Shown: positions 16,463-21,733 of the stretch, piece by piece
Position numbering within the stretch: the stretch's first letter is position 1
Layout: every line of letters begins with the position of its first letter
The notes under the pieces: generated by a model
What the model was told of the DNA's origin: nothing
Seen by the model: only the letters and a program-made list of their open reading frames with translations
Databases searched by the model: none
Translations under genes and position numbers: made by a program
Source: Aminomonas paucivorans DSM 12260
Lineage (GTDB): Bacteria > Synergistota > Synergistia > Synergistales > Synergistaceae
Direction of reading: 5' to 3'
DNA: 64,000 nt
NCBI RefSeq assembly: GCF_000165795.1
Contig: NZ_CM001022.1
Span: 558,001-622,000 of the forward strand

Positions 16463-18394
16463 CTAGAACCAGAACCCCAGCAGGTTCCACTGGTTCAGGA
16501 AGAAGTAGAACCCCACCCCCCCAAGAAGTTCCCCAAACAGCAACCCCTTCTCCCAGGAGGGCCCCGGGGCCCCCAGGGATCGGCATCCCCTCCAGACCGC
16601 CGCCCCCAGGAGGAACCCCGCCGCGAAGGGCAGCAGGAAGAGTCCCTTCACCCACAGGGGCAGCCCGTACCCCAACAGGGTCCCCAGGTTTCGGTCCGCC
16701 AGCCAGAGGGCCAGGAGGAACCCCCCCTGGAGGACCCAGAAAAGCCCCGCAAGCCCCCAGACCCCCGGGGGCAGCCCCGTGGGGTCCTCGTACCAGCGGG
16801 TCCGACCTCGGGTGCGCCACCGGAGCCCCGTCATCCCCAGGGCCCCGACCCCCAGAAGCAGGAAGGTCCCCAGGAACCGACGCTGCCAGGGGGCGGTCTC
16901 CCAGCGGGGGATGGGTTCGTAGCTCCCGTAGGAGTCCCGGAGGAACAGATGGGTGGCCTTCCCCTCCCCGTCGGTCCGGAAGGCCAGGTGTCCCTCGTCC
17001 TCCTCCGAGACGAAGAGCCCCGGCTCCAGGGGCACCCAGCGGGAAGGCGCCTGGTTCCACTCCGCCGGGAAACTCAGCTCCCCCCGTCCGTCCTCCAGGA
17101 TCCGCACCTCCAGAGGGTCCTCCAGCATCATGTAGGCCTTCTCCATGGTGCTTCGGGCGTAGCGGTTGTGCCGATAGGCTCCCGCCAAGGGGATTTCCCA
17201 GGGGAGGATCCGTCCCGGCGGCGGGGGAGGGGAGGGGCGCACGCGGGGAAAGTACCGGTCCATGAGGGCGTGCACCAGGGAGTCCCGCAGGTCCGCGTCG
17301 TCCGTGTTGGCGGCGTAGAAGAAGCCGAAGCGTTTCTCCGGCACCAGGAAGAGGAGACTGGAGAAGCCGTCCACGTCCCCGGCGTGCTCCACCCCCCGCA
17401 GGCCGTTGACGGTGCGCTCGTAGAATCCCAGGGCGGAGCCGTCCAGTCTCGGGTGGTCCCCGTAGTGCCGCCGCAGCAGCTCCCGCACGCAGGAGGCCGG
17501 GAGGACCCGCCGGTTCCCCAGGAGCCCCTCCCCGGTGAGGGCCAGGAGGAACCGCCCCATGTCCTCCCCCGTGGTGTTGAAGGAGATGGCGGGAGCGTCC
17601 TGGTAGTACTCGTACGTCACCGGGTAGGGCTCCGGGCCGTCGGTGTAGTACCCCGTGGCCAGATGCCTTTCCATCTCCTCGTCCAGGACGAAGCCGCTTC
17701 GGGTCATCCCCAGGGGGAGGAGGATGCGATCCCGCACCACCGAGGAGAAGGCCCTGCGGGCGACGGATTCCACGACCGCCCCCGCCAGGGCCACCCCGAA
17801 GTTGGAGTAGCTGTACACCGTCCCGGGGGGGAAGACCCGGGCGGGCATCAGGGCGGGCAGGGCCTTGGCGAAGTCCAGCTCCGCGATGCCGTCGGGGGCG
17901 GTGGAACCGATCCAGCGGTCGTCGAACCCCCCCGTGTGGGTCAGCAGGTGCACCAGGCGCACCGGCTCCGGGAAGGTGGCGGGCACCTTGAAGCGTCGCA
18001 GCCGGGCGTTCACGTCGTCCGAGAGGGCCAGCCGGCGGTCCGCCGCCAGCTGAAGCGTCGCCAGAGCGGTGAACACCTTGGACACCGAGGCGGCCCGGAA
18101 CACCGTCCGTTCCGGGTCCACGGGGCGTCCCGTCTCCAGGTCCGCCTGCCCGTAACCCCGGGCCAGCATCACCTTCCCGTCCGCCACCGCCACGAAGACC
18201 GCCCCGGGAACCCCCCAGGAAGAGCGATGGGAGGCGAAGAACCCGTCGACGAAGGCCCCCAGGTCTCGGGGGTCCTTCAGGGTGGGGGACGCCTTCTCCT
18301 CCGGGACGGCCCGGGGGGTCCTCGGGGCCCCCTGGGCGGGGAGGGCGCACAGAAGCAGCGTCAAAAGGAGCCAAAGCGGGATTCTTCGAGCCAT
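16463..18394 (-). CDS. Beta-lactamase-family serine hydrolase with membrane tail
   Basis: The 643-residue protein has a signal peptide and a class C beta-lactamase/penicillin-binding-like domain (about 45-400). Catalytic Ser103 and Lys106 are in SVSK, Tyr196 and Asn198 in YSN; a late HAGDVDGFSS motif stands where the third KTG box lies. A C-terminal region of about 150 residues holds 4-5 membrane segments. Such enzymes act as peptidases or esterases on peptidoglycan or peptides; antibiotic resistance should not be assumed. It is divergent from the next gene. Confidence 0.85.
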   Translation of the reverse strand: MARRIPLWLLLTLLLCALPAQGAPRTPRAVPEEKASPTLKDPRDLGAFVDGFFASHRSSWGVPGAVFVAVADGKVMLARGYGQADLETGRPVDPERTVFRAASVSKVFTALATLQLAADRRLALSDDVNARLRRFKVPATFPEPVRLVHLLTHTGGFDDRWIGSTAPDGIAELDFAKALPALMPARVFPPGTVYSYSNFGVALAGAVVESVARRAFSSVVRDRILLPLGMTRSGFVLDEEMERHLATGYYTDGPEPYPVTYEYYQDAPAISFNTTGEDMGRFLLALTGEGLLGNRRVLPASCVRELLRRHYGDHPRLDGSALGFYERTVNGLRGVEHAGDVDGFSSLLFLVPEKRFGFFYAANTDDADLRDSLVHALMDRYFPRVRPSPPPPPGRILPWEIPLAGAYRHNRYARSTMEKAYMMLEDPLEVRILEDGRGELSFPAEWNQAPSRWVPLEPGLFVSEEDEGHLAFRTDGEGKATHLFLRDSYGSYEPIPRWETAPWQRRFLGTFLLLGVGALGMTGLRWRTRGRTRWYEDPTGLPPGVWGLAGLFWVLQGGFLLALWLADRNLGTLLGYGLPLWVKGLFLLPFAAGFLLGAAVWRGCRSLGAPGPSWEKGLLFGELLGGVGFYFFLNQWNLLGFWF

Positions 18395-18481
18395 GGGAAC
18401 CTCCGGGAATCGGTTATCCTAGCAGTATAACGGGAAGGGAAGCCCTTGGGACCCGGAACGAGAAGAGGGGGAGGCGACGTC

Positions 18482-19366
18482 GTGGCGGCACGGGAGATGG
18501 AGCGGTTGGAGGGAAATACCTGGATCCTCCCCGGGGCGGTGAACCTGGGGCTCTACGAACGGAAGGGCCGGGCCTGGGGGGTGGACAGCGGCGGAGACGA
18601 CAGCTCCGGCCGTCGGGTCTTGCGTGCCCTGGAGGGTGAGGGGTGGATCCTGGAAGGGATCCTCTGCACCCACTCCCACGCGGACCACATCGGGGGCAAC
18701 GCCTTCCTCCAGCGGCGCAAGGGCTGCCGGGTGGCCGCCCCCCGGGGAGAGGCGGCGCTGGTGGAACGGCCGGACCTGGAGCCCTTCACCCTCTGGGGGG
18801 CCTTCCCCCCAAAGGCCCTGAGGACCAAGTTCCTCCAGGCCCCGCCCTCCCGGGTAACGGACCCTTTCGACCCGGGGGACGTGGTGGGGGGGTGCCTGAG
18901 GGCACTGGACCTGAAGGGGCATATGGTGGCCATGGCGGGGGCGGTGACCCCCGACGGGGTGGCCTTCGTGGGGGACAGCGTCCTGGGGGAGGAGATCCTG
19001 GCCAAGCACGGGGTGCCCTTCTTCGTGGACTACCGCCAGTCCCTGGAGACCCTGGACCGCCTGGAGGCCCTGGAAGCGCGCCTCTTCGTCCCCTCCCACG
19101 GGGAACCGGTGCGGGACGTGCGCCCCCTGGCGGAGGCCAACCGCCGGGTGCTTTCGTCCCTCCGGGAGGAGGTTCGGGACCTGTGCCGCCTCCGGACCCG
19201 GGACGGCATCGTGGGAGCCCTGACGGCGGCGCGGGGAAGGAAAAACGACCTGGTGGCGGAGGTCCTCCACCGGGCCTCCGTCTCCGCCCTGCTCTCGGAT
19301 CTTCTGGACGCGGGGGAGGTGCAGGTCCAGGAAGCCCCCGAAGGGCTGGTCTACCAGCGGGTCTAG
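18482..19366 (+). CDS. Metallo-beta-lactamase-fold hydrolase
   Basis: The 294-residue protein has the zinc motif THSHADHIGG, a later GDSV aspartate and SHGEP histidine, giving the usual MBL ligand set. GTG 18482 follows GGGGAGG by about 8 nt; ATG 18497 is an alternative. The C-terminal 90 residues look like the small winged-helix tail of glyoxalase II-like and RNase Z-unrelated MBL proteins. Likely a thioester or lactone hydrolase; the substrate is unknown. Confidence 0.82.
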   Translation: MAAREMERLEGNTWILPGAVNLGLYERKGRAWGVDSGGDDSSGRRVLRALEGEGWILEGILCTHSHADHIGGNAFLQRRKGCRVAAPRGEAALVERPDLEPFTLWGAFPPKALRTKFLQAPPSRVTDPFDPGDVVGGCLRALDLKGHMVAMAGAVTPDGVAFVGDSVLGEEILAKHGVPFFVDYRQSLETLDRLEALEARLFVPSHGEPVRDVRPLAEANRRVLSSLREEVRDLCRLRTRDGIVGALTAARGRKNDLVAEVLHRASVSALLSDLLDAGEVQVQEAPEGLVYQRV

Positions 19367-19386
19367 GGACGGAAGAAGGGAGGGGC

Positions 19387-19633
19387 TCAGCGGCCCGGGA
19401 TGGCGTTCCTCCACAGGGTGAAGCTCTGCCCCTCCAGAAAATCACAGGAACCGGCCAGATCGTAACCCGCCCCGGTCAGGGTGCTGCGGATCGTCTCCAA
19501 GGGGGTCGTGTGGCCGAAGAGACGGACGAAGGACGCGCCTTTCGCGCGATTTCCGCGCGAAAGGCGCGAAGAGACGGACCGTCTCGCCCATCAGGCCTTC
19601 CAGGTCCTCGGGGAAGGCGTTTGACCTCACCAT
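19387..19633 (-). pseudogene. Small gene broken by a palindromic insertion
   Basis: The frame starting at ATG 19633 (MVRSNAFPEDLEG) runs into an inserted palindrome, shifts frame and ends early at 19442. If the 52 bp between two exact 13-bp direct repeats are removed, the frame is restored to 64 codons ending RNAIPGR at a TGA (19389-19387). The restored C-terminus (SFTLWRNA) recalls the ends of some methyltransferases, but I cannot name a family. The insertion length (52) is not a multiple of three, so the present gene cannot make the full product. Confidence 0.6.
19515..19579. repeat. Palindromic element flanked by 13-bp direct repeats
   Basis: Direct repeats CGAAGAGACGGAC at 19515-19527 and 19567-19579 flank a perfect inverted repeat with 15-bp arms (19534-19548 and 19554-19568) and a 5-nt loop. 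The arrangement looks like a tiny mobile palindrome with target duplication, or a slippage product. Confidence 0.7.
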
Positions 19634-19728
19634 GACCTGTACTGTTTCACGAAGGTATGTATCTTACCCAATGGGACAGGTTGGAGGCTCTGGGGGGGAA
19701 GGGCAAGGTTCCGGCGGGGGAAGGGCAT

Positions 19729-19767
19729 AAAAAAGGGAGAAAGCGTCAGGGGTATCCGCTTTCTCCC
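19729..19767 (-). terminator. Rho-independent terminator, minus strand
   Basis: On the minus strand, an 11-bp stem GGGAGAAAGCG (19767-19757 with 19745-19735) is followed by six T. This is a textbook terminator. No convincing gene ends just before it. Confidence 0.85.
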
Positions 19768-20200
19768 GGCGGCCCTTCCGGGTCGCTTTCCGGCTTGATT
19801 ACCGGCTCGTGGTCCGTTTTGAATTGGGGGTTCCTCGGTCGATTTCCCATGTTTTCGGTGGACGTTCCCCCTCTCCGGTGGTCCCGGTTGCGGAAGCGGT
19901 AGATGGGTCGGACGGCCGGTCCGGGTTGCCTGCTGCCGCTTCTTTTCCTATGGGTACCACCTGCTTTGCTTTCGGATCCGCTGCCTGGTGCCGTTGCGTG
20001 GAGCTGTGGTGCGCCTAGCCGTTGCGGTGGTCCTGTCCGGTGCCCTTACCCGTTTCCGTTCGTGTCCTGCGGCGCAAAAGTCTGCGTCGAACTGCTGGCT
20101 CTTTTCCCGGAACGGTTGTTGCCCTCAAGGACCGGCCACCCGACCCTGGGGCGAAGAGGTTCGCCCTGTTGCTGGCTTCTTCCCTTCCTCCTAGCCCTAT
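19730..20200 (-). ncRNA. Candidate structured non-coding RNA of about 470 nt
   Basis: A good promoter at 20235-20207 and a strong terminator at 19767-19729 define a minus-strand transcript without a credible long reading frame. The RNA would be purine- and C-rich, poor in U, with several hairpins. One example is GAAGCGG (19942-19936) with CCGCTTC (19899-19893), enclosing CGGAC/GTCCG. Conserved marks of RNase P RNA, tmRNA and 6S RNA were looked for and not found. A short coding RNA is not excluded: one minus frame of 76 codons spans 20245-20015, but it starts upstream of the promoter -10. Confidence 0.5.
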
Positions 20201-20206
20201 GACAAG

Positions 20207-20235
20207 ATGATAGGCTGGAATGGTGGCATTATCAA
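20207..20235 (-). promoter_or_regulatory. Sigma-70-type promoter, minus strand
   Basis: TTGATA (20235-20230) and TATCAT (20212-20207) are spaced by exactly 17 bp. Predicted start of transcription is near 20200. Confidence 0.65.
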
Positions 20236-20276
20236 AGCGCACCATGGTCCATGGCGTCGGGATAGGGGAAAGAAAA

Positions 20277-20302
20277 GGGCGGGAAGCTTGCGCTTCCCGC
20301 CC
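20277..20302 (-). terminator. Terminator of the phosphomannomutase gene
   Basis: Eleven-bp arms GGGCGGGAAGC (20277-20287) and its complement (20292-20302) with a 4-nt loop lie 46 bp past the stop. T-rich tails follow on both strands, so it may also work on the plus strand. Confidence 0.8.
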
Positions 20303-20347
20303 TTTTTGCCGTTTCTCGTTGTCCTTCGCGAAAAAACCGCTGCCGTA

Positions 20348-21733
20348 CTAGTATTCCCACTGGAAGTCCTGGACCCCCGCCGACAGGATCCTGTCTTTCA
20401 CGTCCCCGGCGATGGCCTTCAGGTCCTCCTCGGTCTTCCCCTCGCACCGGGCCACCAGGACCGGCTGGGTGTTGGAGGGCCGGATGAGGCCCCACCCCCC
20501 GGGGTAGAGGATCCGCACCCCGTCCACGGTGATGGCCTCGTGGGTCTTCAGGGCTTCCTCCCGGATGCGGTCCACCACCTGGAACTTCACGTCGTCGGGG
20601 CAGTCGATGCGGGTCTCCGCCGTGCTGGGGTAGAGGGGGATGTCCGCCATCAGCTCCGACAGCTTCTTGTCCGTGTGGGAGAGGATGCGCAGCAGCCGTC
20701 CCGCGGCGTAGAAGGCGTCGTCGAAGCCGTAGAACTCGTCGGCGAAGAACATGTGCCCCGACACCTCCCCGGTGAAGAGGGCCCCGATCTCCTTCATCTT
20801 GGCCTTGATGAGGGAGTGCCCGGACTTCCACCACAGGGGGCGGCCTCCCATGCGGCGCACCTCGTCGGGCAGGGCCATGGAGCTTTTCACCTCCACGATC
20901 ACCTCCGCCCCCGGGTGCTTGGGGAGAATCTCCGTCCAGTACAGGAGCATCAGCCGATCTCCCCAGATGACCTCCCCCCGGTCGTCCACCACCCCGATGC
21001 GGTCCGAGTCCCCGTCGAAGCCGATGCCCAGGTCCGCTCCCTCCCGGCGCACCGTCTCGATGAGGGCGGGGAGGTTCTCCCGCTTGGTGGGGTCCGGGTG
21101 GTGGTTGGGGAAGGTGCCGTCCGCCTCGCTGTACAGGTCCACCACCCGGCAGCCCAGACGACGCACGAACTCCGGGGCGAAGGCCCCCCCCGTGCCGTTG
21201 CCCGAGTCCAGCACCACCACGGGCTTGCGGGGTCCCAGGGCGATCCGGGAGACCAGCATGTCCAGGTAGGCCCCCCGGATGTCCTGGTGTTCCAGGGTAC
21301 CCGGGCGGTCCGCCGAAGCGATGCGTCCCTCGTCGATGATGCGCCGGATCTCCTGGATCTCGTCGCCGTAGAGGGTGACCTTGCCGAAGGCCAGCTTCAG
21401 TCCGTTGAACTCCTTGGGGTTGTGGCTGCCCGTCACCATGACGCCCCCGTCCAGGGCGAAGTGGTGGAGGCTCCAGTAGAAGCAGGGGGTGGCCACGGTG
21501 CCGATGTCGATGACGTCGATCCCCGCCGCCTCCGCCCCCTCGATGATGTTGGCCTTGATGCGCTCCGTGGAGAGGCGCACGTCCCCTCCCACGGACATGC
21601 GGGAGATCCCCTGGGATCTCAGGAAGGTGCCGTAGGCCTGCCCGATGAGGCGCACCACCTCGGGAGTCAGTTCCTCCTCCGCGAGGCCTCGGATGTCGTA
21701 TTCCCGGAAGATGTTCGACGGAACCCTGCTCAT
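20348..21733 (-). CDS. Phosphomannomutase / phosphoglucomutase
   Basis: The 461-residue alpha-D-phosphohexomutase carries all four family motifs: the phosphoserine loop TGSHNP (Ser103), metal loop DGDSDRIG, sugar-binding GEVSGH and phosphate-binding RPSNTQP. It interconverts hexose 6- and 1-phosphates for nucleotide-sugar and envelope polysaccharide synthesis. Of the two main specificities the AlgC/ManB-type bifunctional class fits best by length and motif spacing. Start ATG 21733 begins MSRVPSNIFREYDIRG, the usual N-terminus. Confidence 0.92.
   Translation of the reverse strand: MSRVPSNIFREYDIRGLAEEELTPEVVRLIGQAYGTFLRSQGISRMSVGGDVRLSTERIKANIIEGAEAAGIDVIDIGTVATPCFYWSLHHFALDGGVMVTGSHNPKEFNGLKLAFGKVTLYGDEIQEIRRIIDEGRIASADRPGTLEHQDIRGAYLDMLVSRIALGPRKPVVVLDSGNGTGGAFAPEFVRRLGCRVVDLYSEADGTFPNHHPDPTKRENLPALIETVRREGADLGIGFDGDSDRIGVVDDRGEVIWGDRLMLLYWTEILPKHPGAEVIVEVKSSMALPDEVRRMGGRPLWWKSGHSLIKAKMKEIGALFTGEVSGHMFFADEFYGFDDAFYAAGRLLRILSHTDKKLSELMADIPLYPSTAETRIDCPDDVKFQVVDRIREEALKTHEAITVDGVRILYPGGWGLIRPSNTQPVLVARCEGKTEEDLKAIAGDVKDRILSAGVQDFQWEY

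Follow-up and report, generated by a model that had tools for sequence, protein, structure and literature searches.

Directly downstream of a phosphomannomutase gene of Aminomonas paucivorans, a bacterium that ferments amino acids, we identified a unit that is probably an independent gene for a structured non-coding RNA of approximately 400-470 nt, furnished with a sigma-70-type promoter and an intrinsic terminator of its own. The analysis was centred on a window of 64,000 nucleotides (64 kb) of the genome, which consists of a single contig of 2,630,170 bases (G000), and all positions given without a locus refer to this window. The unit has no catalogued match and seems to be a genuine new family of RNA; its conservation between two genera of Synergistota is a new point. 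Transcription signals, syntenic conservation and, in part of the helices, conserved pairing are all present at the sequence level. The unit is predicted to be transcribed from its own promoter, and the folded RNA, of regulatory or RNP type, would most likely act in trans.

Predicted transcription unit

The promoter (minus strand, 20235-20207) consists of TTGATA (20235-20230), a 17-nt spacer and TATCAT (20212-20207), with 10/12 matches to the pattern, and was the only sigma-70-like site within 18500-21500, against 0.2 in shuffles. The intrinsic terminator (19767-19729) comprises an 11-bp stem, GGGAGAAAGCG / CGCTTTCTCCC, closing an 11-nt loop (19767-19735) and followed by TTTTTT (19734-19729); it was absent from the output of the pattern scanner because the loop limit of the latter was 8 nt. 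With the start placed from the promoter and the end from the terminator, the predicted RNA extends over ~470 nt on the minus strand, from about 20199 to 19729. A previous sequence-only reading of the region had proposed the same promoter, a strong terminator with six T and approximately 470 nt between them on the minus strand, all of which was borne out, as was its statement that base use differs from that of the coding DNA nearby. The minus-strand composition is 10.5% U and 27.7% A, G+C is flat across codon positions, and the AT skew falls within the top 0.06% among 470-nt steps of the 64-kb window; the composition of the unit is thus noncoding and U-poor, unlike that of its surroundings.

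Promoter and terminator patterns would carry little weight by themselves; at the equivalent place in three other genomes, however, the RNA core is again preceded by the -10 box and by the terminator of the gene upstream. A promoter and terminator belonging to the unit itself are conserved in relatives. The upstream same-strand neighbour, phosphomannomutase (PF02878-PF02880 and PF00408, Pfam), has an intrinsic terminator with a perfect 15-bp stem and a 4-nt loop (minus strand, 20306-20273), and in 4/4 genomes a strong hairpin with T-rich sequence behind it stands at the same place at the 3' end of this gene. Since phosphomannomutase ends in its own terminator, the RNA forms a separate unit. The TATCAT hexamer is identical in all four genomes; the -35 hexamer has 5/6 matches in the window genome and G002, with lower agreement in G021 and G031. 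Only in the window genome is the RNA terminator stem followed by a clean T run.

Homologues and distribution

Homologues of ~400 nt were found at L002:1194-1598 (minus strand), L101:3052-3456 (plus) and L100:3055-3455 (plus). Their genomes, G002, G021 and G031, fit a single sister genus, which would be Thermanaerovibrio. In all four cases, the window included, the RNA lies directly downstream of phosphomannomutase, and the order is the same: phosphomannomutase terminator, TATCAT -10 box, and RNA with the invariant core CGCAGACTTTTGC. Identity was 0.33-0.40 for pairs of RNAs from different genera and 0.53-0.70 for pairs from the sister genus, and the alignment of the four consists of strongly identical blocks between variable stretches. 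When the window unit was compared by blastn with 60 genomes, two had matches, namely the window genome itself and G002; the latter match (E 8.3e-4) was the sole one in that genome and lay at the syntenic place downstream of phosphomannomutase.

The annotated contigs closest to the window by their phosphomannomutase belong to Synergistota. Phosphomannomutase was detected at E 1e-120 in 157 of the 185 Synergistota genomes, and loci were obtained for 30. Among 114 loci, some places being represented repeatedly, the core was found downstream of this gene in the window genome, G002, G021 and G031 only; L031 had one core match with three mismatches, at a different distance from phosphomannomutase. 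Core matches with one mismatch in G019, G090 and G111 (L097, L094 and L095, respectively) were rejected, as by inspection the surrounding sequence reads as coding; this inspection covered these three loci and left out L093 (G078).

Covariance models were built for the 5' core (R1) and the 3' core (R2), and matches of either to the window prove nothing, because both contain the window sequence. Each matched 4/185 Synergistota genomes at E 0.05. In a permissive search of 40 family genomes at E 1, R1 matched 6/40 and R2 15/40, with only the same four below E 0.05. Other Synergistaceae gave weak matches (E 0.05-1), which we attribute to chance: 7/7 of those checked (L138-L142, L144 and L145; L143 and matches without a locus were left out) lay in long stop-free frames. 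The match in L007 (19.8 bits) was likewise discarded, being mostly inside an ORF of 1086 codons. Phosphomannomutase neighbourhoods (54 loci, including the three homologues) were searched with the default filters of Infernal. After a permissive first pass, the whole-genome model searches scored only the top candidates (25 of 1804 for R1 in G000) and may have missed distant copies of the RNA. No further copy was found across the 185 Synergistota genomes searched, and phages and viral contigs gave no match. A third model, R3, calculated from the three other genomes without the window sequence, found the window at 19885-19765 with an E-value of 1.1e-5 (rough, owing to short calibration), the next best match being at 0.48.

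Predicted secondary structure and conserved elements

The 5' domain would be closed by the long-range helix P1, span 212-242 nt, and comprise an interrupted arm with the invariant CGCAGACUUUUGC at its tip, together with a variable middle, poorly conserved in the alignment (19923..20049; this and the following elements are all on the minus strand). The strands of P1 (5', 20129..20146; 3', 19905..19922) are 89% complementary over 18 nt in the window; the helix measures 6-7 nt in the other three, its counterparts being GGGUCGG/CCGACCC in G002 and GGGCCG/CGGCCC in G021 and G031. It is present in the minimum free energy (MFE) structure of all four domains and shows a C-G to U-A exchange. Shuffle counts for the P1 domain were 1, 7, 2 and 6 of 200, biased in favour of P1 because the domain ends had been chosen for pairing. 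Outside P1, a hairpin GGGCGAA-CCTC-TTCGCCC (20149..20166) occurs in the window genome only, within inserted sequence that the other three lack.

The arm P2 (20050..20115) is made up of an outer helix and inner helices and ends in the tip GCAG-ACUU-UUGC. Its seven-pair helix contains two fully compensatory pairs between G002 and G021; the window aligns badly here and may use CCGUUC/GAACGG instead, and the window arm folded alone adopted a different shape (z 0.34). The core CGACGCAGACTTTTGC (20074..20089) lies within the arm; its 16 nt are identical in G002, and the part found in all four is that given above.

The predicted 3' domain holds a G-rich conserved segment, GGGGGAAC (19864..19871), which may lie in the loop of a hairpin in G002, G021 and G031. 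A pair of small hairpins and the stem of the terminator complete the domain. The hairpins are GCCGGUA...CCGG (19790..19806), which is conserved, and GCGACCC-GGAA-GGGCCGC (19769..19786; GCGGTTC-N4-GAACCGC in the others), in which two U-A to C-G exchanges, changed on both sides, accompany one mismatch. The invariant U-rich tip and the G-rich segment are putative contact sites; by eye, CUUUU could pair with GAAAG, GAAGG or GAGAG, and it is speculative that the two touch each other.

The structure on alignment A2 had 89.7% of cells paired and 5/20 pairs changed on both sides, the percentage being reached by 0/500 shuffles and the pair count by 22/500; on alignment A3, the values were 87.5% and 4/16, reached by 1/500 and 14/500, respectively. 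The consensus of the whole four-sequence alignment, in which by our reading MAFFT misplaces the window P1, had 60 pairs, 16 of them changed on both sides, with an RNAalifold covariation term of only -0.81. Covariation is thin, with four sequences only. The folding energy of the whole RNA was only mildly better than that of shuffles, with z of -1.05 for the window and -0.92, -2.60 and -2.12 for the others.

Alternative explanations

The claim that no frame encodes a plausible protein stood for the most part; it is qualified by a candidate ORF of 34 codons plus stop (19850-19746, minus strand), which overlaps the two 3' hairpins and has an ATG-started open counterpart in each of the other genomes. 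In all four, the frame starting at the ATG of ATGNGAAA stays open for 30-39 codons. The unit could thus be, solely or as a dual-function RNA, an mRNA for a hydrophilic protein of 30-39 residues made from its 3' half, and part of the 3' conservation of the RNA could be explained by the shared ORF. The aligned part has only a 3-nt indel, third-position changes are the commonest in three of four compared pairs (tying with first positions in the remaining one), and the BLOSUM score of differing codons is 0.62 against 0.03 +- 0.40 in column shuffles, 7% of which reach it; 12% of column shuffles are likewise stop-free. Still, these codon tests lean towards coding without any being significant, and stops are rare in a U-poor RNA. 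The window has no Shine-Dalgarno sequence at the usual spacing, GGGGG standing 16 nt before the ATG; the ORF ends vary between genomes; and the pairing of hairpin 19786-19769 is kept while the peptide differs (GSAEPPG versus DPEGPPG). Pfam gave no match for the four peptides, nor for two other window ORFs tested, and a 2-nt indel means that the 5' core cannot be coding throughout. We therefore consider a protein-coding role unlikely, though the candidate ORF retains a small chance of being an alternative product or a second one.

Quite improbable, in our view, is a long cis leader, an attenuator or riboswitch with a regulated terminator, serving a downstream serine-hydrolase gene that later became separated from it in the window. 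Such a gene, of PF00144 type and on the same strand, starts shortly after the terminator in G002 (Pfam) and G021 (resemblance by eye), and an ORF of G031 stands at equal distance from the terminator. In the window, though, an oppositely oriented metallo-beta-lactamase gene (PF00753, Pfam; 18446-19366), convergent with the RNA, separates it from the hydrolase gene (PF00144, Pfam; 16463-18394, minus strand). With this gene intervening and the starts of the two genes only ~50 bp apart, the RNA probably does not serve as a leader of the hydrolase there, and the retention of the promoter-RNA-terminator unit with the hydrolase out of reach is the strongest argument against a cis leader; no Rfam cis-regulatory match was obtained either. 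The intervening gene therefore favours a stand-alone unit. That the region is intergenic DNA of chance sequence without function, or the remnant of a gene, would agree with a window RNA folding energy near that of shuffles and with the failure to find a copy beyond the two genera, yet conserved blocks despite 33-40% overall identity to the other genus, the shared promoter and synteny, detection of the window by R3 and helices kept through both-side changes make it very improbable.

Relation to known RNAs

The earlier reading had called the unit a candidate novel ncRNA distinct from RNase P RNA, tmRNA and 6S RNA, and had suggested an Rfam/Infernal scan and comparative folding with relatives as checks. 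Rfam 15, applied to the entire 64-kb window at gathering thresholds, gave no match and hence no family at the unit, and a permissive Rfam search of the region and its homologues yielded isolated sub-threshold matches only, none common to the homologues. Comparative folding revealed several helices that keep their pairing through changes on both sides. Taken with the homologues of conserved structure in three related genomes, these results support the candidacy.

Like RNase P RNA, tmRNA, large SRP RNA and 6S RNA, the unit would be a stand-alone structured RNA gene, of similar size class (6S RNA is shorter). None of these matched at the unit, and their places lie elsewhere in the genome: RNase P RNA (RF00010) at G000:C1:1606405-1606733, tmRNA (RF00023 / ARAGORN) at G000:C1:1668170-1668520, the bacterial large SRP RNA (RF01854) at G000:C1:1244928-1245060 and, for 6S RNA (RF00013), a best place at G000:C1:1892360-1892538. 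The last is a probable 6S RNA, scoring 46.1 bits, just under the Rfam cut-off of 46.4.

Orphan large RNAs of bacteria, among them OLE, raiA, GOLLD and ROOL, are long and multi-branched, with their own transcription units and functions not evident from their neighbours. The unit is similar in its length, predicted branching, own transcription unit and uninformative neighbours; it differs in having no Rfam 15 match at, or meaningfully below, the gathering score, and in its very narrow distribution. CsrA sponges of CsrB/RsmZ type were also considered, the RNA being purine-rich and CsrA encoded in 4/4 genomes. GGA motifs are in clear excess in the window RNA (21 versus 15.2 +- 2.5 in shuffles) but not in the other three (11, 17 and 14 versus 15.1, 13.5 and 14.5), and this assignment was rejected. 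With SgrS and RNAIII, which are dual-function sRNAs, the RNA shares a possible small ORF.

Few large structured RNAs are known from bacteria, and unusual functions have come to light for several of them. It is possible, if doubtful, that the unit exemplifies a new class of large tertiary-folded RNA of the Aminomonas-Thermanaerovibrio lineage, with the U-rich tip and G-rich segment as contacts, which would serve as an RNP scaffold, ribozyme or global trans-regulator and might also encode a small protein. With a delimited transcription unit, four homologues and helices open to testing, this RNA offers enough to seed a family model. Synergistota is a phylum for which little RNA work was found in the literature searched, and no description of this RNA was found there. 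PMC6429828 deals with another Synergistetes genome, that of Thermovirga lienii; the main texts of this article and of PMC8632094 do not name Aminomonas or Thermanaerovibrio.

Further observations on the neighbourhood

In G002 (Pfam) and G021 (ORF resemblance), too, phosphomannomutase and the RNA are followed by the serine hydrolase gene (PF00144), and an ORF of G031 is placed like it, at equal distance from the RNA. Only the window genome has a metallo-beta-lactamase gene (PF00753) between the RNA and the hydrolase, divergent from the latter. Between this gene and the RNA there is, at 19532-19570, a perfect 15-bp hairpin (CGCGCCTTTCGCGCG-5 nt-CGCGCGAAAGGCGCG), of which no second copy occurs within the 64-kb window and which has AAGAGACGGAC on each flank.
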